DNA of 64,000 nt, from positions 806,001 to 870,000 of the forward strand of contig JAHBVE010000001.1 of the NCBI GenBank assembly GCA_019637675.1, written 5' to 3'. Source of the stretch: Anaerolineales bacterium. Lineage in GTDB: Bacteria > Chloroflexota > Anaerolineae > Anaerolineales > UBA11579. A program made the position numbers and the translations under genes. Positions 14,117-26,674 of this stretch are shown piece after piece; position 1 is the stretch's first letter; the number at the start of each line of letters is the position of its first letter. A model generated the notes under the pieces. That model did not search any database. It was not told the DNA's origin and was given only the letters and a program-made list of their open reading frames with translations.

Positions 14117-14848
14117 CTAACTGACCCGCCCGAAGGCGTAGAAGGTGGGCACATGCAGCTGGCGCGTGCCGGCTGCCCAGGCGGCCGCGTCGAGCACCAG
14201 CCAGCGCTCCAGCTCCTGAGCGGGCATGTGCCCGCTAAGGTCGGCGCGCAACGTAGCGGCTTCGCCCTCAGCCGCCGGGCTGCTGGTTTGTAGCAGCCCG
14301 CTGTCTACAAGCTGCAGCCCGGCCGCCGCGAACAGCGCCGGCAGGCGGCCCCCTACTGTGGGGTCAGCGCCGCGGGCGCGCAAGGCTTCGCTCTGGGCGC
14401 GGCCCAGCGGCGCGAGTTCGTTGGGCGCGTCGGTGCGCTGGCTGTAGTCAGGCTCGGCCAGGGCCAGTACCGCGCCGCCGCGGCGCACCACGCGGCGCAT
14501 CTCGGCCAGCGCTTGCGCCGGCTGGGCAACCCACAGCAGCACGAAGTGACAGAAGGCAATGTCGAAGGACGCGTCCGGGTAGGGCAGGGCATGTGCATCA
14601 CCGGCAGTGAGCTCGGCCGCGGGCGCGTGTTGCCGAGCCAAGGCCAGGGCGTCGCGGTCAATATCCAGCCCGGCCAGCTGGCCGCCAGCCGGCATGCTGA
14701 GCGTGCTGAGGATCGCGCCTGTGCCGCAGCCCACCTCCAGCACGCGGCGCGCATTGTGTAGCCCGGCGGCCGCCAGCAGGTGGCGGCGCGCCGGCGCGGT
14801 CCAGGCGGCTTGCTGGCTATAGCGCTGGTGGGCGAGGGCTGGCTGCAT
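14117..14848 (-). CDS. SAM-dependent methyltransferase
   Basis: A 243-residue class I methyltransferase. Motif I is VLEVGCGTGAILSTL, the acidic loop is LAGLDIDRDAL, and motif II/post-motif is AGDAHALPYPDASFD. It belongs to the UbiE/Methyltransf_11 type; the substrate is unknown. I start it at MQPALAHQRYS because a perfect TATAAT lies seven bases before this ATG, suggesting a leaderless message; the longer open frame upstream runs into a hairpin. Confidence 0.85.
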   Translation of the reverse strand: MQPALAHQRYSQQAAWTAPARRHLLAAAGLHNARRVLEVGCGTGAILSTLSMPAGGQLAGLDIDRDALALARQHAPAAELTAGDAHALPYPDASFDIAFCHFVLLWVAQPAQALAEMRRVVRRGGAVLALAEPDYSQRTDAPNELAPLGRAQSEALRARGADPTVGGRLPALFAAAGLQLVDSGLLQTSSPAAEGEAATLRADLSGHMPAQELERWLVLDAAAWAAGTRQLHVPTFYAFGRVS

Positions 14849-14855
14849 ACCTGAG

Positions 14856-14861
14856 ATTATA
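14856..14861 (-). promoter_or_regulatory. -10 box, leaderless-type promoter
   Basis: TATAAT seven bases before the methyltransferase ATG. Confidence 0.6.
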
Positions 14862-14896
14862 TGAGCACGCATCCATATGGAGCGCAGCTTTAAATG

Positions 14897-14927
14897 CAAG
14901 AGGCGCAGGTTTTGCCTGCGCCTCTTG
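14897..14927 (-). terminator. Hairpin after the secreted protease
   Basis: Thirteen-base perfect stem CAAGAGGCGCAGG / CCTGCGCCTCTTG just past the protease stop codon. The T tract is weak, so termination efficiency is uncertain. Confidence 0.6.
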
Positions 14928-14950: not shown

Positions 14951-17900
14951 CTACGGAGTGATATTGATCGAGCGGATGTTGCTCCAGGCACTCCAGTTGC
15001 CGGCAGCATCCATGGCGCGCACTTTCCAGTACAACACGCCTATCGGGGGAGTGTAGTTGTTTGGTTTGTACGTGGTGACAGTGATCCCGCCATACTGCTG
15101 CACAGCCGTGTCGAAGGCAATTGATGGCGAGTACTGGATCTGATAACGCACCGCTCCCACAGATGGCTTCCATTGCACTTGTGGAAGGCCGCGTGAAGTG
15201 GAGCCATTGGCCGGCGAGGATAACTTTGGAGGCAGTGGCGCCGTGCGGTCCACGGTGAATTGGCGAACAGTGCTCCAAGGACCCGCTTCGCCGTTCACAT
15301 TCCGTCCGCGTACTCGCCAGTAATACGTTCCATCGGTCACCAAGCTGGAGTCTGTGTGGGTAAGCACCCCAGAGGCCAGTGTAGTGTTGACCGCGAGCGG
15401 AGCTTGGAACTGGGGCTTGTTGCTGACCTGGATCTGATAGGTGTCACCATGTGCCACGGCTGTCCAGTTGAAGGTTATGTCTGGCAGGTTGAGGATGGCG
15501 CTGTTGGCTGGCGTCTTCAAATTGGGCGCAGCCGTAACGAGCTTCGGCAGGATCGTAATGGACCGAGGAGTGCTCCAGGCGCCCCAGTTGCCAGCCGCAT
15601 CCACTGCACGCACCTGCCAATACAGCGTACCCAGCGGCGGGGTGTAGTTTGCCGGTGGCTTGTACGTATTTGCAGTGATGCCACCGTACTGCTGCACAGC
15701 AGTATCAAAGTCTACTGAAGGCGAGTACTGGATCTGATAGCGCAACGCGCCGACAGGCTTGCTCCATTTAACTTGCGGAACGCCGCGCGAGTTGGCTCCA
15801 TCGGCTGGCCCAGTTGGGTTCGGGGCAGTGGGCGCAGTGCGGTCAACGATGAATTTGCCGGTAGTGCTCCAGGGGCCGGCTTCGCCGTTCACATTCCGTC
15901 CGCGTACCCGCCAGTAGTAAGTGCCCTCGGCCAGGCCAGAGTCTGTCAGCGTAAGCACCCCGGAGCCTAGCGTCGTGTTGACCGTATGGGGCGTCTTGAA
16001 CTGGGCGTTGGTGTTGATCTGGATGTGATAGGTATCACCCTGTGCAACGGCTGCCCAGTTGAAGACAATGCTTGCCAGGTTCAAAGAGGCATTGTTGGCT
16101 GGGGTTGTCAGCTTGGGTGCTACTGTGACCAGCTTTGGCAGAATGGTGATCGAGCGAGCATTGCTCCAGCCGCTCCAGTTTCCAGCTGCATCCACCGCGC
16201 GGACCCGCCAATACAGTGTGCCCAACGGCGGGTTGTAGCCGGTTGGCTTGTAGGTGGTCGTCTTGATGCCGCCGTACTCCTGGACTGCCGTGTCAAAGGC
16301 TGCAGAAGTGGAGTACTGGATCTGATAGCGGACTGCGCCAACAGGCTGCTGCCATTGAACTTGGGGGACGCCGCGTGATGTGGCGCCATTGGCTGGCGAA
16401 GTTAGCTTGGGCGCGGTTGGAGGAATGCGATCCAGTGTGAAAGTGCGGACTGTGCTCCATGGGCCAGCATATCCGAGGTTGTTCATACCGCGTACGCGCC
16501 AGTAATACACGCCATCCGCTAGGGCAGACGGCGGCGTATACGTGAGTACTGCCCCTTGCTTGGATCTTACGATCTGTGTGAAACCCGCATCCGACGCTAG
16601 CTGGAATTGATACGTAGCCGCGTTGGCCGCTGAATTCCAGGTGAAGGCCGGCGTTGGATTGGTTGTGAATATATTGTTGGCCGGCCCGGTCAGCGAAGGC
16701 TGCGCGGCGGGGGCTCCCGTGCCAGTAATGATCGTTATGGTAAAGCTGGTTGCATTCTGTGAATCAATCCGAACGCGGATTTTTGCCGCTGAGTCAGTAA
16801 ACGTTTCACCTACTACCCACTGTCCGCCTGCATCGCTTGGATCTCCGTTATTGTCTGCATCAACTACATGTGCTGGCTCATTTCGGCCTGTATTGACATG
16901 AGCAATGACTACTGCCTGTCCAGGTATGCCCAGGTCATAACCGATTAACTGACGGGCTTCTACAGTGTAGTAGTTTGTGCTCGACCCATTAATGGGGATG
17001 CGGGCCATCAAATATCTGTTGGAATTGTTAGTAGGTTGGGCGAGTCTATCAAGCGTGATAGTGACTTCACCATTCGATGGTGGAACGAATATCTTGCTAC
17101 TGGGTATCCAGCCTAATCTTTGTTTATGGTATGCCAGGGTATGTGGAGCTACACAGCCATATGTTGGATCATTTACGAAGCACCAGACGCCTCCCATCAC
17201 ATCCCAACCCCCAGCTATGGAATGAGGCAGGCCAAAAGAGTGTCCCATTTCGTGGGCAGTGATTACTTGCGTGTGGCTCCACAAAGGCATCCAGGTCATC
17301 GGCCAGTTCTTAGTGACACCATCTAGTGTCATCCATTGACTGGCGCCGCCCCAGGCACAACATCCGAGATTTTGATTGAAGAAGATGTTAATGCCTGCAA
17401 AGGCAGCAAAATTCACACTGCTATTCGCAACATTGGTGCAATCCTCGGCCATCAGCCACCAATTGAGCTCCCCATTGAGCACATATGAAGCTAAGGGCTT
17501 AGGGAGATTGAACCAACCGGCCGAATCCGAACCAGAGATGTTCATGGCGTTGTAAGAGAGTTCTCTCCAGTAGCTACTGAGACGTGGATAAGTGTCATCT
17601 AGTAGGCGTGTGTAATAAGCGCGTGGATTGGGGGTGTTTCCATGATTCGAGAAACGGCATAGAAGATTTATGTAGGGTTTTGTTCCAGTTACGGCTGCTG
17701 AGACATCCCCAGAAGCGGCCTGTGGTCCAAAACTCACCAATGAAAGCGAGCTCACTTGTAAGGCGCCCCCGCCCTCGCCACCCTCTGCTGAAGCATTCAT
17801 TGATTGCTGACCCATCCAGGTACCGGAAACGGTTACATTTGCACCTTGTAGTCTGGTCTCACCACCAGCAGACACAACTAGATTTGGGTGTATCAAGAGT

Positions 17901-18343
17901 TGCGTGTGGTTGCCATCTTCCTCAGTTATCGAGAAGATCTTGCGCTCGTTGTTATCGGCATCATCTCCCCAGATAATGGAAAAATACCCTGTGAGAGTAA
18001 GAGGTTGCCCCATGCCATAGACTTGCAGACCGTCTTTGTCGGGGGTAGATGTCGCCGTTTGAGTAGCCGTGCCAGTTGTAGTAGCCGTAAGAGTGGCGTT
18101 AATGGTGGCGGTTGGCTCTTCCGTAGTGGCTTCAGGAGTTTCCGTTGGCGTTGAGCTATCCGGGGTTGCACTTGGTTCAGGCGTATTCGTGTAGGTCTCG
18201 GTAGCTGTTGGAGTCGGCGTGTCGCCAGGGTCCTGAGCCAGTGCCACGCTGGGGAATGCCCCGAGCGAAATGATTACACCCAAGATCAGGGATACATAAA
18301 GCAACGCCTTAGAAAAGGAAATAGTCTTTGAAGCCGATGTCAT
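14951..18343 (-). CDS. Secreted metzincin-like metalloprotease with tandem Fn3-like repeats
   Basis: A 1130-residue exported protein. A signal peptide (about residues 1-36, ending SVALAQ) is followed by a Thr/Pro/Glu-rich linker (about 37-100). The catalytic domain carries the zinc motif HEMGHSFGLPH (His364, His368, His374) and a downstream WDVMGG that fits a Met-turn. Cysteines (CCAWGG, NLLCRF) suggest disulphides. From about residue 538 to the end are alternating Fn3-like modules in roughly 200-residue units (YYWRVRG, GPWST, LYWRVRAVDAAGNW). Start MTSASK follows AGGAGG; an open frame continues far upstream as Arg/His-rich shadow of the opposite gene. Probably an extracellular or surface protease. 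Confidence 0.85.
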   Translation of the reverse strand: MTSASKTISFSKALLYVSLILGVIISLGAFPSVALAQDPGDTPTPTATETYTNTPEPSATPDSSTPTETPEATTEEPTATINATLTATTTGTATQTATSTPDKDGLQVYGMGQPLTLTGYFSIIWGDDADNNERKIFSITEEDGNHTQLLIHPNLVVSAGGETRLQGANVTVSGTWMGQQSMNASAEGGEGGGALQVSSLSLVSFGPQAASGDVSAAVTGTKPYINLLCRFSNHGNTPNPRAYYTRLLDDTYPRLSSYWRELSYNAMNISGSDSAGWFNLPKPLASYVLNGELNWWLMAEDCTNVANSSVNFAAFAGINIFFNQNLGCCAWGGASQWMTLDGVTKNWPMTWMPLWSHTQVITAHEMGHSFGLPHSIAGGWDVMGGVWCFVNDPTYGCVAPHTLAYHKQRLGWIPSSKIFVPPSNGEVTITLDRLAQPTNNSNRYLMARIPINGSSTNYYTVEARQLIGYDLGIPGQAVVIAHVNTGRNEPAHVVDADNNGDPSDAGGQWVVGETFTDSAAKIRVRIDSQNATSFTITIITGTGAPAAQPSLTGPANNIFTTNPTPAFTWNSAANAATYQFQLASDAGFTQIVRSKQGAVLTYTPPSALADGVYYWRVRGMNNLGYAGPWSTVRTFTLDRIPPTAPKLTSPANGATSRGVPQVQWQQPVGAVRYQIQYSTSAAFDTAVQEYGGIKTTTYKPTGYNPPLGTLYWRVRAVDAAGNWSGWSNARSITILPKLVTVAPKLTTPANNASLNLASIVFNWAAVAQGDTYHIQINTNAQFKTPHTVNTTLGSGVLTLTDSGLAEGTYYWRVRGRNVNGEAGPWSTTGKFIVDRTAPTAPNPTGPADGANSRGVPQVKWSKPVGALRYQIQYSPSVDFDTAVQQYGGITANTYKPPANYTPPLGTLYWQVRAVDAAGNWGAWSTPRSITILPKLVTAAPNLKTPANSAILNLPDITFNWTAVAHGDTYQIQVSNKPQFQAPLAVNTTLASGVLTHTDSSLVTDGTYYWRVRGRNVNGEAGPWSTVRQFTVDRTAPLPPKLSSPANGSTSRGLPQVQWKPSVGAVRYQIQYSPSIAFDTAVQQYGGITVTTYKPNNYTPPIGVLYWKVRAMDAAGNWSAWSNIRSINITP
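15240..16470. repeat. Tandem ~590-base coding repeats in the protease gene
   Basis: Equivalent segments, such as TGCTCCA followed by the GCTTCGCCGTTCACATTCCG block, recur at about 15271, 15869 and (diverged) 16453, so units are 584-598 bases long. The last two are nearly identical over long stretches, indicating recent duplication or gene conversion. Confidence 0.75.
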
Positions 18344-18457: not shown

Positions 18458-20083
18458 ATGGCGCTCGATATACGTTCCGCTTCCGTCAATAAGCTCTGGC
18501 AGGGGGTGCGCAGCGACACCGCCAACTTCCTGGCCGCCTTTTCCCAGCCTGAAAAACCCCGCCTCGGGTTGCATACCTACGACATTGCCATGGCCAATGG
18601 CCGCAGTATGCGTATTCACCTGCGCATCGAGCCCAGCGGCAACGGCGTCATGTTCGTGGATGTGACCGATGTGGTGCACCTCAATCACACCGCGGCGCTG
18701 ATGGCCAAGATGGCGCTCGACGGTGTGCCGCGGGCGCAGGCGCGGGCGCGCATCGGCGGCTGGCACCCGGATGCGCCGCTGGCACAGATCGAGCGCGAGC
18801 TGCAGCAGATCTACGACATGGTGGAAGGCTTTGCCCACCCGGACGGCGACTGCCCGACCTGCGAGCTGAGCGATACCCTGGAAATGTCGCCCATGTTCAG
18901 CGTGGAAGTGAATGCGCCTTACAAGGTGGACATAGCGCTGACCTATGGCTGCAACAACGAGTGCCCGCATTGCTACAACGAGGCTGACCGCCTCAACATG
19001 CCCTCGCTGCCGCTGGCGGATTGGTACGCCGTGCTCGACCGCCTGGCCGAGTTGGGCGTGCCGCATCTCATCCTCACCGGCGGCGAGGCGACCCTGCACC
19101 CGGACCTGCCGCAAGTCATTCGCTACGCCGACCAGCTCGGCATGGTGGTGGGACTCAACACCAACGGCCGCCACATCGCCCACAACGAATACATGCAAGA
19201 GCTTGCCGAAGCCGGCTTGAACCATGTGCAATTCACGCTCGACTCCAGCCGGCCGGATGTGCACAACGCCATGATGGGCGCAAAGGCCTGGCACCAGACC
19301 GTGCAGGGTATCGAGAACGCCATCGCCAGCCGTGTGCATGTGATCACCAACACCACGCTGATGCGCGCCAACATGGGCCATGTGGAAGAGATCATCGAGT
19401 TCCTTTATTCACTGGGCATCCGCACCTTTGCGATGAACGGCCTGATCTACTCCGGTGGCGGCTTTGCGCACTCCAACGCCATTGATGAGAAAGAGATGCC
19501 GGCGTTGCTGGTGCGCGTGCGCGATAAGGCCCGCGAGCTGGGCATGCGCTTCCTGTGGTACACGCCCACTGAATACTGCCGCATGTCGCCGGTTGAGTTG
19601 GAGATCGGCGCCAAGCGCTGCAACGCCGGCGAGTACTCGCTGTGCATCGAACCGAATGGCAATGTGCTGCCGTGCCAGTCGTATTACGTTTCGACCGGCA
19701 ATATTCTGCACGACCCGTGGGAGCAGATCTGGGATGGCGAGCTGTTCCGCAGCTTCCGCTACCGCGAGCTGGATCCCAAGGGCTACGGCCTGCCCGAGAA
19801 GTGCTGGACCTGCCCTGACCTGCCGCTGTGCGGCGGCGGCTGCCGTATCGAGCGCGAAGCGCGTGACGGTGTGCGCGTGGCCGAGGGCAGCGGGGGCGGC
19901 TGCTCAGGCTGCAGCGGCAGCTGCGGCACCGGCAGCTCTGCGCACCAGGTCAAAGGGCATTCGCACACGGCCGGCTATATTCCGGCGGGAGGCTTTACCC
20001 CTTCGCCCAGCACCACGCGCACCAAGACGCGCGCCAGCGGCAACTTTGACATGATCGGTCTGGATGAGATCGGCGTTCAGTAA
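18458..20083 (+). CDS. Radical SAM/SPASM enzyme with PqqD-like N-terminus
   Basis: A 541-residue protein. Residues about 40-110 resemble a PqqD/RiPP-recognition fold (IHLRIEPSGNG, then DVVHLNHTAALMA). The radical SAM cluster motif CNNECPHC has Cys165, Cys169 and Cys172, followed by the SAM-binding LTGGEATLHP. The SPASM domain shows CNAGEYSLC and then the four-Cys signature CWTCPDLPLCGGGC. The C-terminus is Gly/Cys-rich (GGGCSGCSGSCG). This architecture is typical of peptide-modifying enzymes. It is followed by a membrane protein homologous to the DUF2207 cytoplasmic domain, and a Cys-tail DUF2207 protein lies nearby on the other strand, a likely partner or substrate (inference). Confidence 0.92.
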   Translation: MALDIRSASVNKLWQGVRSDTANFLAAFSQPEKPRLGLHTYDIAMANGRSMRIHLRIEPSGNGVMFVDVTDVVHLNHTAALMAKMALDGVPRAQARARIGGWHPDAPLAQIERELQQIYDMVEGFAHPDGDCPTCELSDTLEMSPMFSVEVNAPYKVDIALTYGCNNECPHCYNEADRLNMPSLPLADWYAVLDRLAELGVPHLILTGGEATLHPDLPQVIRYADQLGMVVGLNTNGRHIAHNEYMQELAEAGLNHVQFTLDSSRPDVHNAMMGAKAWHQTVQGIENAIASRVHVITNTTLMRANMGHVEEIIEFLYSLGIRTFAMNGLIYSGGGFAHSNAIDEKEMPALLVRVRDKARELGMRFLWYTPTEYCRMSPVELEIGAKRCNAGEYSLCIEPNGNVLPCQSYYVSTGNILHDPWEQIWDGELFRSFRYRELDPKGYGLPEKCWTCPDLPLCGGGCRIEREARDGVRVAEGSGGGCSGCSGSCGTGSSAHQVKGHSHTAGYIPAGGFTPSPSTTRTKTRASGNFDMIGLDEIGVQ

Positions 20084-20109
20084 AAAAGCTGAACCACAAA
20101 GAGCACAAA

Positions 20110-20140
20110 GAAAAGCTAGTCTATTAGTCAGCTAGTCCTG
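20110..20140. repeat. Repeat family R3, degenerate copy
   Basis: CTAGTCTATTAGTCAGCTAGTC, related to the palindrome at 10260. Confidence 0.45.
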
Positions 20141-20143
20141 ATC

Positions 20144-20194
20144 GTCATTGCGAGGGAAGGTTGCATGGCAATGCAGCCGACCGAAGCAATCCCC
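20144..20194. repeat. Palindromic repeat family R2, half copy
   Basis: From GTCATTGCGAGG to GAAGCAATCC, with inner hairpin GGTTGCATGGCAATGCAGCC. Confidence 0.7.
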
Positions 20195-20219
20195 ATGCTG
20201 TTCGCCATCTTTCAGCCCG

Positions 20220-20225
20220 TATAAT
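20220..20225 (+). promoter_or_regulatory. -10 box, leaderless-type promoter
   Basis: TATAAT exactly six bases before the ATG at 20232. Confidence 0.65.
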
Positions 20226-20231
20226 CGTTGC

Positions 20232-21233
20232 ATGCTTGCCGCTTTCGAAGCCAACATAATCTTGCGCATAGCCACAGCTGCCGTGTTCACGGCGTTGCTG
20301 TGGCTATTGTTCTTACAGCTGGCTCGCGGCCAGGGCAAGATATTCTTCGCCGCCCTGGCCGCCGGGCTGCTGGCTGTGTTCGCTTATTCGCCGCTGGCGC
20401 AGGCGCTGGCCTTCGTGCCGCTGCTGGGCTTGCTGACGTGGGCCGCCTGGCGCCGGCGGCAGGCGGCTGGCTACCAGCCCGCCGTCGCCCGCATCGAGGG
20501 CGGCGGGGTCAAGCGTGGCCTTACGCCGCCCGAGGCGGCCGTGCTGCTGGGGCGGCCGATCAATATTACGTTGACCCTGCTGCTGTTCGAGTTGCTGCGC
20601 AAGGGCATCCTGCGCCAAACGAACGGCGAGCCTTTTACCGTCGAGGTCACCGAGGCCTTCCGCGCGCACGGGTCGGCCCTGACCGCCCAGGAGCGCGGCG
20701 AGCGCCGCCGCCTGGCCGCCCAGGCCATCAACGCCGCCCTGCACGCCTTCGAAGAGCCCTTCCTCGAGATCATCGAGAGTCATCCCGGCGTACCGGTGCG
20801 TGCACTCGACCTGGGCGTGGCGGTGCAGCCGCTGGTGCGCTATGTGGCCGGGCGGGCGGGGGGCTACAGCCTCGACGAGACGCGGGTCTACTACGACCTC
20901 ATCATCGATCGTGCCCCCAAGGAAGCTCGCAGTGACGGCAAGCTGACCTTTGACCGTGAGCGCATCTTCAACCGCAATCTGGGCTGGGTGCTGCTGGGCG
21001 CAGACTTCGTCACTGTGCTCGACCAGCCAGATTATTCCTATGTGCCGCAGTGGCTGCGCAAGCAGCCGGTGCCACTGGGCAACCGCACCTTCGCCCGCTG
21101 GGTGCAAGCCGTCTACGCCGAGCTCGACGGCGTGGTGGACGAACGCGACGTCCAGCTCGAACTCGGCGACGAGAACGACGCGGTGACCGCCGCGCTGCTA
21201 GGTGATATTCGCAGAACTACGTTTTACGGCTAA
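20232..21233 (+). CDS. Membrane protein related to the DUF2207 cytoplasmic domain
   Basis: A 333-residue protein with two or three N-terminal helices (about residues 5-70) and a soluble C-terminal domain. The segment GGVKRGLTPPEAAVLLGRP matches GHGIKRGLTAPEAAILLEQP of the Cys-tail DUF2207 protein at 23174-24862. A second shared block (VYYDLI ... ERIFNRNLGWVLLG) aligns with VEFYKKI ... EAFDENLEWTMLD. It lacks the extracellular domain and the Cys tail. It follows the radical SAM gene by 148 bases but has its own TATAAT six bases before the ATG. Function unknown; the paralogy ties it to the radical SAM/DUF2207 locus. Confidence 0.8.
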   Translation: MLAAFEANIILRIATAAVFTALLWLLFLQLARGQGKIFFAALAAGLLAVFAYSPLAQALAFVPLLGLLTWAAWRRRQAAGYQPAVARIEGGGVKRGLTPPEAAVLLGRPINITLTLLLFELLRKGILRQTNGEPFTVEVTEAFRAHGSALTAQERGERRRLAAQAINAALHAFEEPFLEIIESHPGVPVRALDLGVAVQPLVRYVAGRAGGYSLDETRVYYDLIIDRAPKEARSDGKLTFDRERIFNRNLGWVLLGADFVTVLDQPDYSYVPQWLRKQPVPLGNRTFARWVQAVYAELDGVVDERDVQLELGDENDAVTAALLGDIRRTTFYG

Positions 21234-21236
21234 CCC

Positions 21237-21291
21237 GTCATTGCGAGGAGCACCCGGACGGCGTCAGCTGTTCGGAGCGGACGAAGCAATC
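21237..21291. repeat. Palindromic repeat family R2, half copy
   Basis: GTCATTGCGAGGAGC to GACGAAGCAATC directly after the stop codon of the preceding gene. Confidence 0.7.
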
Positions 21292-21363
21292 TGGGGTTTG
21301 ATTTAGTAGTGGCTGACTTACATCCTACAGCACAGATTAGGCACCGAGGAAGTGGGAGAATTT

Positions 21364-22002
21364 ATGGATGAAACTGCTCTGATCTTAGGGGGTGTAAACG
21401 CTCGGACAATACCGAACCCCGAGGAACTTCTGCTCGCTTACCGCAACGAGATCGGGGGTGATTACTATGACTATCAACCCGTAACGCAACGTGACATGCT
21501 AGTTCCAGAGGATTTGGCTGTCACGCTTGCCTTCAATTCCAATGTGAGTTGGCGCGCGTTCCGCAGTATGAAGAATCATGCCGCGGATGTTGAGCTTTCC
21601 AAGCTGCCCGATAAACCACTGCACAACACGATCTCTACTGAGCGCGACCTTATTGCAAATGTCATAGTTGCTTTGATTGAATGGCCGGGTTTTGGCTCAT
21701 CAGTCGCAACCAAGGTGCTTCACAAAAAGCGGCCTGAACTGATTCCTGTTCTGGATAACCAGTCCATCTATTCCGCATATCTCAACCCGCAATGGCCAGC
21801 CGAGCACATCAAACCCTACACAGTGTATAGCTATGCACTGATTCGCGAAGCACTAGAGAATGTGTTCTTGGATGTGAGCCGCGCCGAGAACTTGCCGATA
21901 TGGGAAAAACTGAGAAGGCTGGAGCCAGCCTTCTCACGAATTGAACTATTTGACTGCGTATGGTTTATGTATTTCCTTGCTAACCAGCAACGCCTGCGCT
22001 AG
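21364..22002 (+). CDS. Hypothetical protein, possibly DUF6308-like
   Basis: A 212-residue soluble protein. It contains a central LHKKRPELIPVLDNQSIYSAYL motif, like small proteins often labelled DUF6308, but I am not sure of this match. No catalytic signature is recognised. GGGAG precedes the ATG. The base composition and codons are clearly more AT-rich than those of the flanking radical SAM and DUF2207 genes. It sits between the two halves of that locus and may be a later insertion. Confidence 0.6.
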   Translation: MDETALILGGVNARTIPNPEELLLAYRNEIGGDYYDYQPVTQRDMLVPEDLAVTLAFNSNVSWRAFRSMKNHAADVELSKLPDKPLHNTISTERDLIANVIVALIEWPGFGSSVATKVLHKKRPELIPVLDNQSIYSAYLNPQWPAEHIKPYTVYSYALIREALENVFLDVSRAENLPIWEKLRRLEPAFSRIELFDCVWFMYFLANQQRLR

Positions 22003-23174
22003 CTTGGTTTCCAAATCGCGTCCCACGCATCCCGCACAAAATTGCCCAGCACCTTGTTCGTGCCCTGGCCGGGCAGCACGTCGCCGTCTGGCTCCACGTA
22101 GAGCCAGGCCTTGTGCGCAGGCTTCGCCTGTGCGGGAGTTTGCTCCGCAAACTCCGCGAGTTCTAAGGCCACCGGGTTGAGCGCCGAATACGGCACCGGC
22201 AGGTCCCATACCAGCGGCAAGTTCAGCGCGTTGGCGTGGTCGCGGGCGGCGTGCAGCGCCTCGCTGAGCGAAGTATCCGCTTCGCTCAGCGAGAGGGCGC
22301 GGATGCCGCTGCCGGAGAGCTTGTCGATCAGGGCATTGGCCTGGGCGGCGTTGTCCTTGGTCAGGGTCAGGTGGGCGGCGATGAAGATGTCATCGTTCAG
22401 CACTTCACGCCAATAGGCAAAACTGGCCAGCGAGTCCCAGGTCTGCGTGCCGCTGGGTTGCAGCACGATCATGGCGTGGTCCAGGCCCGCATCCAGTAGG
22501 GTCTTGAGGTAGCGCGTATCGGTCAGCTTGTGGCCGTCGGTCACCAGGCCGGTCACCAGGCCGCGGTCCTCGGCGTGCTGCAGCAGCTCGGCCAGGTCTT
22601 CGCGCAGGGTCGGCTCGCCGCCGGTGAAGGTGATGTGCGGGATGCCGGCCGCATACGCTTTGTCGATCACCTGCTTCCACTCCTCGGTGGTCAGCTCGCG
22701 CTCGACCCGCTTGCTGGGCGCGGCATCCGTAGGCGCGCCCTCGGGCAGGCGGTAGGTCAGGGCAATATCCAGGCGATAGGGCGCGCTCAGATCCTCATAC
22801 GGCGTGGCGCGGTCGATATCAAGATAGGTGACCGGGTCCAGGTCGGGCGTTTCGATCAGGGTCTGGATGGTCTTGGCGAACTCGGCGTAATCCTCGGCGG
22901 CGTGCTTCTTGTCGGTGCTATAGCGTTTGGCTACCTGCTCAGCGACCTGCTCCGGCGGGGTGAGACGGATGAAGTGCCAGGCCATCTCCGTGGCGGTCTG
23001 GTTGAGGTGCAGCACGGTGCTGGCGTTAATGACCAGCAGGCCTTCGCCGCCCGGCTCGACGCGCAGGTGCAAGCGGTAGTGGTTGGGGTGGCTGGCGGGC
23101 GAGGTGTACGAGAACAGCCCGGGTTCCAGAGGCTGGGCCTTTTCGCCGCCGCGCAGTTTGTCTAGAAAGCCCAT
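21999..23174 (-). CDS. Cysteine-free radical-SAM-fold pseudoenzyme with PqqD-like N-terminus
   Basis: A 391-residue homologue of the radical SAM protein at 18458. The N-terminal PqqD-like region is shared (YRLHLRVEPGGEG, then TVLHLNQTATEMA) and the core keeps FTGGEPTLREDL. Where the active protein has LTYGCNNECPHC, this one has LTYRLPEGAPTD. The SPASM part keeps YVEPDGDVLPGQG but has lost its cysteines. There is no Cys in the whole protein, so it cannot bind an Fe-S cluster. Its ATG overlaps the stop of the Cys-tail DUF2207 gene (TAATG), so the two are translationally coupled. Likely a substrate-binding or scaffold partner (inference). An Arg-rich upstream extension of the frame is shadow of the Cys tail. 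Confidence 0.85.
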   Translation of the reverse strand: MGFLDKLRGGEKAQPLEPGLFSYTSPASHPNHYRLHLRVEPGGEGLLVINASTVLHLNQTATEMAWHFIRLTPPEQVAEQVAKRYSTDKKHAAEDYAEFAKTIQTLIETPDLDPVTYLDIDRATPYEDLSAPYRLDIALTYRLPEGAPTDAAPSKRVERELTTEEWKQVIDKAYAAGIPHITFTGGEPTLREDLAELLQHAEDRGLVTGLVTDGHKLTDTRYLKTLLDAGLDHAMIVLQPSGTQTWDSLASFAYWREVLNDDIFIAAHLTLTKDNAAQANALIDKLSGSGIRALSLSEADTSLSEALHAARDHANALNLPLVWDLPVPYSALNPVALELAEFAEQTPAQAKPAHKAWLYVEPDGDVLPGQGTNKVLGNFVRDAWDAIWKPS

Positions 23175-24862
23175 TAGCGGCCTCCACCGGCGCAGGCGCA
23201 GGCACAGCCGGCGCAGGCGCACGCACACGATGAGCCCCCGCCGCTGAAGCCGCCACCGCCGCTGCTGGCGGTGGGCGGGGGCGGCGGGTTGGTGACCTTG
23301 GTCACGCCGCCGGTAAAGTCAGACAGGTTGCCGACCACGCTGCTGGCGAAGCTCTGCACGCCGCCGACCACCGAGGCGGCAAAGTCGCCGCCGGGCAGGG
23401 TGGGCAGCGAGGGGCTGCCGGTGCTGCGGGTGGGCGAGCTGCTGCTGCGCCCAACGCTGGGTGCGGATGCGGTCTTGCCGGCGGTGTTGTAGGCCGGGTT
23501 GTAGCCGCCGTACCAGCGCGGCAGGTAGACTGGGCCGTCGGCGAACACATCCCGCGTGCGGCGGTCGTAGTTCGGGTCCAGCATGGTCCACTCCAGGTTC
23601 TCGTCAAAGGCTTCGCTCTTGACCTGCGGAGTGTCGGCCGCCTCGACCTCTTTCCAGGCGTCGGCGGTGATCTTCTTGTAGAACTCGACCGTTTCGCGCT
23701 TGCTGAAACCGCGCATCTTGTTGGCCACGCCGCGCACCATACGCACCATCATCTGCTGCAATTCACGGCGGCGCTTGGCCTTGTCGCTCTCGGCGAAGGC
23801 GTTGAGGAAATCGTTCTCGTATTCCTTCAGGCCGGTGGGCTGCTTGGTGACGCGGGCCACATCCAGCGGGTCACGTTTCACCACTTCGGCGGCGCCCTTC
23901 TTGACCACCGAGAACATGATCATAGTGAGGATCTTGTCCATCGGCTGCTCGAGCAGGATGGCGGCTTCGGGCGCGGTGAGGCCGCGCTTGATGCCGTGCC
24001 CCTCGACCGAGATCTTGGGCGGCAAATACTTGAGCTTGCGGCTGCGCTCAGAGCGCACCGCGATCACAACAATGAAGGTGAATACGCCTGCGAAGCACAA
24101 GCACACCAGCAGGCCGATGACCACGTCAGGGTCGATGCCGTAGCGCTGCCAGAAGGTGGGCGTGGTCACTGTGCCGCTGGCCACATAGCGGGCCGGGAAG
24201 GATGCGCCGAACAAGTAGTCTCGCCCGGCGCTGGCCGTGGTGTTGCGCCAGGTGTAGGTGATGCGGCCGGAGTTGTCTACGCCGGTGACCGGGCTATCCG
24301 GGAAGCCGGGGTGGCCGGCGGTGTGCCAGCGCGGCTCGCTGGGCTGCACGCCCGGCGGCAGGTGGAAGACTACGGTGATGTCGCTGCTGCCGTTGACGAA
24401 GTCAGAGTCGAAATAGTTGGGCATGAACAACGCGCTGGCGTAACTGGAGTCGTTGTTGTCTTCGTACAGCACGTTGCGCACATTCGTGGCGCTCATGCGC
24501 ACGGTGCCGGTCTGCCCGGGCTGGATGGCGTTGGCGCCCAGCCCCAGCTCTACGCCGTTATCCACATAGGGAGAGTAGGCGATGTGCGTGATCGGGCGGC
24601 CGTCAATGGATGCGCTGATGTTGGAGATGGAATAGCTGCTGTTCGGCAGGCCGACGTCTACATAGTCGATCGGGTCGGCATAGCTCTCATTGCGGAAGGT
24701 GATCTCATACGTCACGCTGAGCGTGCCGTTGGTCTCCCAGTACACGTCTACGCGCTGGGTTGGCACCTGGAAGGCATAGGTCTGCGCATACGCCACGCTG
24801 AGCGGGACCAGCGCAACCAATACAACGAGCGTGAGTAGCAGTAATTGGCGTCGGACTTTCAT
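23174..24862 (-). CDS. DUF2207 membrane protein with symmetric Cys-Ala C-terminal tail
   Basis: A 562-residue protein. It has a signal peptide (residues 1-26), an extracytoplasmic beta domain (about 27-240), one transmembrane helix (about 247-270), a cytoplasmic domain with GIKRGLTAPEAAILLEQP (about 290-307), and a low-complexity Ser/Pro/Gly region. The tail is GGGGFSGGGSS, then (Cys-Ala)3-Gly-(Cys-Ala)3-Gly3-Arg, with Cys546, 548, 550, 553, 555 and 557. DUF2207 proteins commonly end in Gly-rich tails, but this regular Cys-Ala pattern is striking. By topology the tail should lie in the cytoplasm, accessible to the two radical SAM-like proteins of this locus. It is coupled to the pseudoenzyme by a one-base overlap. 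Confidence 0.9.
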   Translation of the reverse strand: MKVRRQLLLLTLVVLVALVPLSVAYAQTYAFQVPTQRVDVYWETNGTLSVTYEITFRNESYADPIDYVDVGLPNSSYSISNISASIDGRPITHIAYSPYVDNGVELGLGANAIQPGQTGTVRMSATNVRNVLYEDNNDSSYASALFMPNYFDSDFVNGSSDITVVFHLPPGVQPSEPRWHTAGHPGFPDSPVTGVDNSGRITYTWRNTTASAGRDYLFGASFPARYVASGTVTTPTFWQRYGIDPDVVIGLLVCLCFAGVFTFIVVIAVRSERSRKLKYLPPKISVEGHGIKRGLTAPEAAILLEQPMDKILTMIMFSVVKKGAAEVVKRDPLDVARVTKQPTGLKEYENDFLNAFAESDKAKRRRELQQMMVRMVRGVANKMRGFSKRETVEFYKKITADAWKEVEAADTPQVKSEAFDENLEWTMLDPNYDRRTRDVFADGPVYLPRWYGGYNPAYNTAGKTASAPSVGRSSSSPTRSTGSPSLPTLPGGDFAASVVGGVQSFASSVVGNLSDFTGGVTKVTNPPPPPTASSGGGGFSGGGSSCACACAGCACACAGGGR

Positions 24863-24925: not shown

Positions 24926-25279
24926 CTACCACTTGGGCGCTTCTTCGATCTGGTAGACCGCGCCGCAGTAGGGGCAGGTGACGTTGAGCGCGCCGCCCAC
25001 CAGGGCCACGTTCTTGTCGCTCAGGGCGCCGCCACATTGCTGGCACAGGAACTTCTCCAGCTTGACGTCGCCGGTCAGGTCTACGTTGTAGGTCACCTTT
25101 TGCTCGCCGGGGGCGGCCAGCTTTTGGTTGGCGTACCACATGAGGCCAAAGCCCAGGCCCACGGTGATGAGGCCGGTGAGCAGGTTGCCCCAGCTGGTTT
25201 GGGTGCCGAAGGCGGCCCAGATGAAGAGCACGCCAAAGAAGATCAGGATCCAGGATGCAATTTTTGCGATCGATTTCAT
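24926..25279 (-). CDS. Small membrane protein with C-terminal zinc ribbon
   Basis: A 117-residue protein. Two transmembrane helices (about residues 5-25 and 30-50) are followed by a soluble domain with two CxxC knuckles, CQQCGG and CPYCGA, spaced like a zinc ribbon. A Shine-Dalgarno TAGGAGC precedes the ATG. It lies upstream of and in the same direction as the DUF2207/pseudoenzyme pair, with a 63-base gap, so it may belong to that transcription unit. Function unknown. Confidence 0.75.
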   Translation of the reverse strand: MKSIAKIASWILIFFGVLFIWAAFGTQTSWGNLLTGLITVGLGFGLMWYANQKLAAPGEQKVTYNVDLTGDVKLEKFLCQQCGGALSDKNVALVGGALNVTCPYCGAVYQIEEAPKW

Positions 25280-25515: not shown

Positions 25516-26262
25516 ATGCCAAACGAAATTTCCTACAAGATCCACGGGGATGACCTGCAGCTGCTTGAGATCGAGCTGGACCCGGGCGAGGCGGTGCGCG
25601 GCGAAGCCGGCACCATGACCTTCATGGAAAGCGGCGTAGAGATGCAAACCGGCGTGGGCGGCATCTTCAAGGGCCTGAAGCGTATGTTCACCGGGGAGAG
25701 CTTCTTTATCTCCACCTTCACCAACACCAGCCAGGCCATCTCACATGTGGCCTTCGCCGCCCCGTACCCCGGCAGCATCCTGCCCATCAACCTGAGCGCT
25801 GAGGGCGGCAAGTTCATCTGCCAGAAGGATTCCTTCCTGTGCGCCGACACCAGCGTCGAGATCGAGATCGCCTTCACCAAGCGGCTGGGCGCGGGCCTCT
25901 TCGGCGGGGAGGGTTTCATCCTGCAGCGCCTGGAGGGCAGCGGCATGGCCTGGGTGCATGCCGGCGGCACGCTGATCGAGAAGACCCTGGCGGCGGGCGA
26001 GACCCTGCGGGTGGATACCGGCTGCCTGGTGGCGTTTGCGCCCTCGGTGGATTACGACATCAAGATGATGAAGGGCTTCACCAACGCCCTGTTCGCCGGC
26101 GAAGGCCTGTTCCTGGCCCAGCTGACCGGGCCGGGCAAGGTGTACTTGCAGAGCCTGCCGCTCTCACGCCTGGCCGACCGCATTCTGGCGGGCGCCAAGC
26201 GCAGCGGCAACAAGTCTGGCGGCGTGGCCAGCGATGTCATCGGCGGGCTCTTCGGCGGCTAG
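25516..26262 (+). CDS. AIM24/TIGR00266 family protein
   Basis: A 248-residue beta-rich protein of the family related to yeast Aim24. It begins EISYKIHGDDLQLLEIELDPGE and carries the typical MTFMES..EMQT segment, LSAEGGKFICQKDSFL and a Gly-rich end (GGLFGG). The family is thought to form trimeric beta-helical scaffolds; its role is unknown. The ATG follows GACGAGGAG. An open frame extends 54 codons upstream across a repeat and is not used. Confidence 0.9.
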   Translation: MPNEISYKIHGDDLQLLEIELDPGEAVRGEAGTMTFMESGVEMQTGVGGIFKGLKRMFTGESFFISTFTNTSQAISHVAFAAPYPGSILPINLSAEGGKFICQKDSFLCADTSVEIEIAFTKRLGAGLFGGEGFILQRLEGSGMAWVHAGGTLIEKTLAAGETLRVDTGCLVAFAPSVDYDIKMMKGFTNALFAGEGLFLAQLTGPGKVYLQSLPLSRLADRILAGAKRSGNKSGGVASDVIGGLFGG

Positions 26263-26296
26263 GGCAGTGGGGTAGAATCTGGGCAACGGAGCAGCC

Positions 26297-26674
26297 ATGG
26301 CCAAAACCTTCAACCCGCGCATTTACAAGATCACCTTCGCCAGCGTGTACCCTATGTACATTCAGAAGGCGGAGAAGAAGGGCCGCACCAAGGCCGAGGT
26401 GGACAAGATCATCTACTGGCTGACCGGCTACAACAAGAAGCAGATGGACGCGCAGATCAAGCGCGAGACCACCTTCGAAACTTTCTTCGCTGAAGCGCCG
26501 GGGATGAACCCGGCCCGCGAGCTGATCACGGGCGTGGTGTGCGGCGTGCGGCTGGAAGAGATCGAGGACCCGCTGATGAAGGAAATGCGCTACCTGGATA
26601 AGCTGGTGGATGAACTGGCCAAGGGCAAAGCGATGGAGAAGATATTGCGCCAGCCCGCCGAGGCCGTGGGCTAA
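26297..26674 (+). CDS. DUF2200 family protein
   Basis: A 125-residue basic protein with strong family features: [20 protein letters not shown], then [17 protein letters not shown]. It is 34 bases after the AIM24 gene, with its own TAGAAT-like box and a GGAG ribosome site, and it ends at a strong terminator. No biochemical function is established for this family. Confidence 0.9.

Follow-up and report, generated by a model that had tools for sequence, protein, structure and literature searches.

A Cys-Ala tail on a membrane protein is inherited together with a radical SAM/SPASM enzyme from Anaerolineae to Asgard archaea

Most of what is known about radical S-adenosylmethionine (SAM)/SPASM maturases concerns small peptides and cofactors that are released. 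The sactipeptide, ranthipeptide and related maturases SkfB, SuiB and CteB accept small leader-core peptides that undergo cleavage, and SPASM enzymes of this fold that bear an RRE domain, the module that docks the substrate in systems for ribosomally synthesized and post-translationally modified peptides (RiPPs), act on peptides. The His-Xaa-Ser system HxsA/HxsB/HxsC/HxsD combines a repeat-bearing protein with dedicated radical SAM genes, GeoRSP is paired with a cluster-less partner of radical SAM fold, and a DVU_1556-family methyltransferase accompanies the radical SAM protein TrsS. In the present work, we examine a stretch of 64,000 nucleotides of contig JAHBVE010000001.1 from an Anaerolineales bacterium, called the window below, in which a membrane protein (tailP) ends in alternating Cys and Ala residues. 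We will show that this tail is inherited together with a radical SAM/SPASM enzyme (rSAM), and that the two likely belong to a membrane-tethered, RiPP-like modification cassette. The enzyme shares its fold, its SPASM clusters and its RRE-type N-terminus with SkfB, SuiB and CteB, whereas the putative core is here the C-terminus of a membrane protein of 500-700 residues.

The nearest published idea, in the passages of PMC12452194 drawn on here, concerns TIGR04222 membrane proteins with low-complexity, Cys-rich C-terminal tails, which are linked to MNIO enzymes and for which a modification is predicted. As in the present cassette, the gene of a Cys-tailed membrane protein is there linked to that of a RiPP-type modifying enzyme. 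The present cassette would apply RiPP-maturase logic to the tail of a membrane protein. The same passages describe MNIO with PME-type 2 partners and Ser/Gly/Cys tails predicted to be periplasmic, and contain no radical SAM pairing. The present cassette, on the other hand, has a radical SAM/SPASM enzyme, a pseudo-radical-SAM protein (psRS) and a methyltransferase (MT), its (Cys-Ala)n tail is predicted to be cytosolic, and tail and enzyme are associated almost without exception. Its parts in the window are the following.

23174..24862, (-) strand: tailP, membrane protein of 562 residues (open reading frame list and AF2 model)
23177..23227, (-) strand: Cys-Ala tail of tailP, residues 546-562 (CACACAGCACACAGGGR), with the stop codon at 23174-23176
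23228..23392, (-) strand: pre-tail segment of tailP, residues 491-545, candidate leader or putative docking element
21999..23175, (-) strand: psRS, pseudo-radical-SAM protein with a PqqD-like RRE and no Cys (Pfam and Cys count)
18458..20083, (+) strand: rSAM, radical SAM/SPASM enzyme of the type II clade with the motif CNNECPHC (Pfam, tree and predicted fold)
20232..21233, (+) strand: DUFb, relative of the type II tail proteins without tail and without ectodomain (sequence comparison)
24926..25279, (-) strand: Znr, small membrane protein with a C-terminal zinc ribbon, upstream of tailP (neighbour comparison)
14117..14899, (-) strand: MT, class I SAM-dependent methyltransferase (Methyltransf_11), cassette member (neighbour comparison)

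A first line of evidence is the co-inheritance of tail and enzyme, a check that the first-pass annotation of this DNA had proposed. Among 400 Chloroflexota genomes, with the tail located by pattern and rSAM by a query at E<=1e-70, each was found in 28, and the two sets of genomes are identical; the probability of this by chance is ~1e-43, assuming independent genomes. Near relatives of the positive genomes that lack one of the two lack the other as well. MT is present in 27 of the 28 tail genomes, the single absence (L236) being at a contig end, and in 0 of 28 negative Chloroflexota genomes used as controls. Similarly, psRS is present at ortholog strength in 28/28 tail genomes and 1/28 controls. 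The control exception is a lone psRS (genome G153, L226:2601-3743(-)) with neither tail nor rSAM nearby, which is possibly a remnant after loss of the cassette. Two more weak psRS matches in the controls are enzymes of the HSAC system described below.

The pairing reaches well beyond Chloroflexota. A scan of GTDB contigs gave at least 119 tail loci; the tail is in frame in 119/119 matches listed, and terminal in all those listed except Hungatella. The non-Chloroflexota names of metagenome-assembled genomes (MAGs) among the matches listed are Aminicenantes, Pirellulales, Zixibacteria, Coatesbacteria, Fermentibacterota, Armatimonadetes, Hydrogenedentota, Acidobacteriota, Deltaproteobacteria, Hyd24-12 and Edwardsbacteria. 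Asgard archaea are also among them, and the pairing of tail and rSAM is the same there and in Hungatella. Cys-Ala tails are thus not common without a neighbouring radical SAM gene, an outcome that would have spoken against the proposal of the first-pass annotation: rSAM is adjacent in 79 of the 87 loci listed with enough flanking sequence. The other eight comprise two with the layout of the window family, three whose genomes encode a strong ortholog at another place, Hungatella with the enzyme on the other side, and two outside the test. For the seemingly tail-only Asgard and Hungatella cases, rSAM was found on searching the rest of the genome. In Hungatella hathewayi, a cultured member of Bacillota from the human gut, rSAM is directly joined to a shorter tail protein (L203:458-2982(-)).

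A second line of evidence comes from a sister system, in which the tail is (His-Ser/Asp-Ala-Cys)n, here called HSAC. Among 119 Asgard genomes, strong rSAM orthologs occur in 27, including 21 of the 22 genomes with a CACACA tail (Fisher 5e-17), and a second enzyme group of ~30-37% identity occurs in 18, including 17 of the 19 genomes with an HSAC tail (2e-17). No crossover between enzyme group and tail type was found in these genomes. The HSAC pair is also present in three Chloroflexota genomes, one of them (G070) carrying both pairs, and the HSAC enzymes sampled, from bacteria and archaea, form one clade in the tree with support 100/100. These results show that the enzyme clade pairs with the tail type, CACACA or HSAC. 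The HSAC tail proteins (L227:7093-8808(-), L228:4804-6642(+), L230:4052-5794(-) and L274:3427-5592(-)) are membrane proteins related to tailP; the distinct SPASM clade enzyme adjoins or lies near their genes in both Chloroflexota and Asgard archaea, and in the bacterial loci an undescribed partner of 390-480 residues comes after them.

The tail itself is under purifying selection. The C-terminus of tailP is SSCACACAGCACACAGGGR, and the longer terminal stretch TNPPPPPTASSGGGGFSGGGSSCACACAGCACACAGGGR, each followed by the stop codon, which agrees with the tail (Cys-Ala)3-Gly-(Cys-Ala)3-Gly3-Arg reported initially. Over the last 17 codons, comparisons within the genus give 334 synonymous and 0 nonsynonymous pairwise differences, where the pairs are not independent. 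It is important to point out that most rows of our alignment were picked by the tail pattern, and the CACACAGCACACA columns are therefore invariant by construction in those rows, while GGGR and the pre-tail motif lie outside the pattern. The loci fetched via the neighbouring psRS are unselected for the tail, and every relative among them with the tail gene covered has it intact. The tail is 16-21 residues long and almost invariant; the Asgard tails include CACACACACACAGGGR and CACACACVSCACACAGGGR, so that the near-constant part is (Cys-Ala)3-Gly3-Arg. A chance or low-complexity origin was rejected on the basis of the codon differences and of a control with the reversed pattern, which gave 0/400 genomes. 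The His-Xaa-Ser repeat of the HxsA type is absent from the window tail, which is a Cys-Ala one.

In the AF2 model, tailP has a signal peptide, a beta ectodomain (residues 31-223), a transmembrane segment (245-278) and a cytosolic domain (297-454), and then disorder, an isolated helix predicted with confidence (491-524) and the disordered tail. The sequence RSERSRKLK directly follows the transmembrane segment, and from this inside-positive topology the tail is predicted to be cytosolic, in the same compartment as rSAM, with the ectodomain outside. In the alignment of relatives, the pre-tail residues F516, T521, T524, N525, P526 and P528 are kept, the Gly/Ser linker between this motif and the tail varies in length and sequence, and conservation extends to the ectodomain and the cytosolic domain as well as to the tail. 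The ectodomain is similar to the beta domain at the N-terminus of M1 aminopeptidases, and also to ribophorin; an assignment as membrane peptidase was rejected, as the matched length fits only the non-catalytic M1 N-terminal domain.

The DUF2207 label originally given to tailP did not hold. At E<=1 no Pfam family matches the protein, and TIGR04222 scores 13.8 bits (E 0.034) against a cut-off of 43, so both DUF2207 (PF09972/PF20990) and TIGR04222 membership were rejected, the former for falling below the Pfam gathering score. A weak similarity to the TIGR04222 profile is seen in 7/42 family members (best 3e-4) and a DUF2207_C match in 2/42 (best E 0.15), and an HSAC-type relative reaches 21.6 bits for DUF2207, where the gathering score is 24.4. 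Judged by sequence, tailP is thus a remote relative of DUF2207/TIGR04222. The membrane protein DUFb was recognized correctly from the beginning as homologous to the cytosolic domain of tailP (28% over 216 residues, E 5e-16), and it has 41% identity over 286 residues to the type II tail protein L045.

By its Pfam matches, the enzyme of the window is a radical SAM/SPASM protein (Radical_SAM 8e-28, 98 bits with a cut-off of 29.5; SPASM 1.5e-11). The CxxxCxxC cysteines C165/C169/C172 are present in 43/43 rSAM sequences, and the SPASM Cys set is complete (C388-x12-G401-x4-C406 and C449-x2-C452-x5-C458-x3-C462, in at least 42/43). A RiPP-maturase fold is predicted, with a winged-helix RRE-like N-terminus, a partial barrel and the SPASM part, and the closest folds are those of SuiB, SkfB, CteB and PqqE. 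By sequence comparison with solved structures, the closest is SkfB (1.4e-31), followed by PqqE. An assignment as PqqE, SkfB, GeoRSP or mycofactocin maturase equivalog was rejected (122/381, 78/300, 105/400 and 89/265 bits versus cut-off, respectively). The weak matches include HxsC profiles, but the repeat is a different one and the cassette enzymes are far below the Hxs cut-offs. TIGR04347 (pseudo-SAM/SPASM) resembles the cassette, by family name, in its cluster-less partner of radical SAM fold, but this family and GeoRSP differ in that the scores of 61 vs 525 and 105 vs 400 bits are far below the equivalog cut-offs. Positions 19884-20083 of the window encode a Gly/Cys-rich, disordered C-terminal extension of rSAM (with the sequence GGGCSGCSGSCG), which is found in a minority of relatives.

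The partner psRS overlaps tailP at a TAATG, in which the stop codon of tailP meets the psRS start, and it matches Radical_SAM (3e-11) and PqqD (1e-6), as expected from the radical-SAM-fold protein with PqqD-like N-terminus described at first. The window copy has 0 Cys, and CxxxCxxC is present in 1/45 relatives. A role as second radical SAM catalyst was rejected, because a protein with no cysteine is incapable of radical SAM catalysis. The first-pass annotation did not include this noncatalytic nature of psRS, the two partners MT and Znr, the sister HSAC system or the occurrence in archaea. The convergent genes rSAM (18458-20083(+)) and DUFb (20232-21233(+)) lie within 5 kb of tailP and psRS, and the N-terminus that rSAM was said to share with psRS is recovered in the predicted fold but not by Pfam.

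In the tree, the window rSAM falls inside the type II clade, while tailP and psRS are of type I. The window genome has one tail and, at the threshold of E<=1e-70, one enzyme of the family, and the window is thus probably a hybrid in which a type II enzyme serves a type I tail; the genome is ~93% complete, so that a second enzyme may have been missed. The usual gene order is Znr-tailP-rSAM-psRS-MT in type I and Znr-rSAM-psRS-tail-MT in type II loci.

On this basis we propose the following mechanism. The pre-tail helix and the conserved TNPxP motif of tailP would act as a built-in leader, to which the RRE domain of rSAM would bind, as would that of the dead psRS in clades with this protein. With its radical SAM and SPASM clusters, rSAM would then modify the Cys-Ala units in the cytosol, MT may add a further step, and the product would stay on the membrane protein, with the ectodomain outside. 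That the tail is the rSAM substrate is suggested by the co-inheritance, the clade pairing and the fold, which bears out the earlier proposal as far as the association goes; the modification and its chemistry are an inference. The most likely modification would be Cys-to-Ala thioether cross-links, a speculation that draws on the Cys-Ala spacing and on the kinship to SkfB and CteB; Ala is a thioether acceptor in ruminococcin C. The target of the methylation and the physiological role are a matter of speculation as well. We also put forward, tentatively, a broader idea: the tails could represent a new modification class of bacteria and Asgard archaea, in which cytosolic Cys-repeat tails are cross-linked by dedicated rSAM clades and stay on the membrane protein, where they would serve as a functional element, e.g. 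sensory, redox or metal-handling.

Several observations weigh against the proposed cassette. No modified product has been observed. The p-values above overstate the independence of genomes that share descent. Strong rSAM is present with the tail undetected in six Asgard genomes (MAGs, two of the enzymes at contig ends), and in one (G476) the tail is present with rSAM undetected. PqqE is near-equal to SkfB in the solved-structure scores and the top NCBIfam profiles are of the NirJ/PqqE type, which bears on the chemistry. The window rSAM has no Pfam PqqD match, its RRE being recognized by predicted fold only; PqqD is above cut-off in psRS (29.4 bits) and in type I (31.6), archaeal (29.9) and HSAC (30.8) rSAM enzymes. 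Finally, in Hungatella the residues AGCSQKDFYNSIHVPKEIPKI follow GGGR, and MT was not seen near the cassette.

Among the other explanations, the one that survives best is that the tail is an unmodified metal- or Fe-S-binding or redox element, with rSAM and MT acting on a small molecule or another protein site. Its alternating Cys residues and the zinc-ribbon partner, which precedes tailP in 71/75 type I loci tested, would fit such a role, as would the fact that the modification has been deduced and not observed. However, the enzyme clade follows the tail sequence, RRE-bearing enzymes of the SuiB/SkfB/CteB fold act on peptides, and the tail is fixed beyond the needs of Cys binding (Ala, GGGR), which makes this explanation unlikely.

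We have also considered a precursor role, in which the tail would be cleaved from the membrane protein as its carrier and would yield a small cofactor or peptide, as with PQQ and mycofactocin. The NCBIfam profiles closest to rSAM include PqqE and the mycofactocin maturase, and the nearly fixed C-terminus could be the released fragment. However, when all neighbours in 35 diverse loci were clustered, only the tail protein, rSAM/psRS, the methyltransferase and the zinc-ribbon protein recurred widely, with no protease, transporter or exporter among the recurrent neighbours of these loci, a scope that does not cover a distant protease. The next family, a phosphate-type ABC ATPase, is found in 4/35. 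Together with the conservation of ectodomain and cytosolic domain along with the tail, this renders a release rather unlikely, and from the lack of a recurrent protease or transporter we infer that modification takes place in the cytosol, on a tail that is still part of the membrane protein. A different role for the tail, as an enzyme accessory (donor of sulfur, a cluster or electrons) or as a scaffold that localises the cassette to the membrane, is very improbable, since tail and enzyme types vary together and RRE domains dock peptide substrates in RiPP systems, even if the RRE-bearing pseudo-enzyme could itself be a scaffold.

The proposed cassette would represent an apparently undescribed, widespread modification of proteins at the membrane. 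Neither the tail protein nor the specific group of rSAM matches an NCBIfam or Pfam family above its cut-off, and the titles, abstracts and passages of the open-access literature consulted contain no description of the tail-rSAM pairing. If the proposal is correct, a protein-bound modification is made at the membrane by one cassette, which is passed on as a unit in lineages from Anaerolineae to Asgard archaea, and the concept of Cys-tailed membrane proteins as enzyme substrates, put forward for TIGR04222 with MNIO, extends to a second, unrelated enzyme chemistry. The cultured hosts Ornatilinea, Bellilinea, Levilinea, Leptolinea and Hungatella are targets for mass spectrometry.

The closest named family to MT is the DVU_1556-family methyltransferase (80 bits, cut-off 155), which we regard as a lead only; we know of no tail protein that occurs with that family. 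MT is close beside rSAM in the related loci L095, L104 and L189, unlike in the window, where the two are separated by a large secreted protein with Ig-like domains and a weak metallopeptidase match (14951-18343(-)). A DUF6308 protein (21352-22002(+)) lies between the two convergent gene pairs. Some type I families have an insert between rSAM and psRS, either a 334-residue membrane protein (L031:8688-9692) or a CDP-alcohol phosphatidyltransferase together with a lipid A-type acyltransferase (L035:8839-10431). One type II locus (L234:10656-14346(+)) has two tandem tail proteins, one of them with a shortened first block (CACAGCACACACAGGGR). In the window, the cassette is adjoined by AIM24/TIGR00266 and DUF2200 proteins (25516-26674(+)), and the related locus L155 likewise has AIM24 close to its tail gene.

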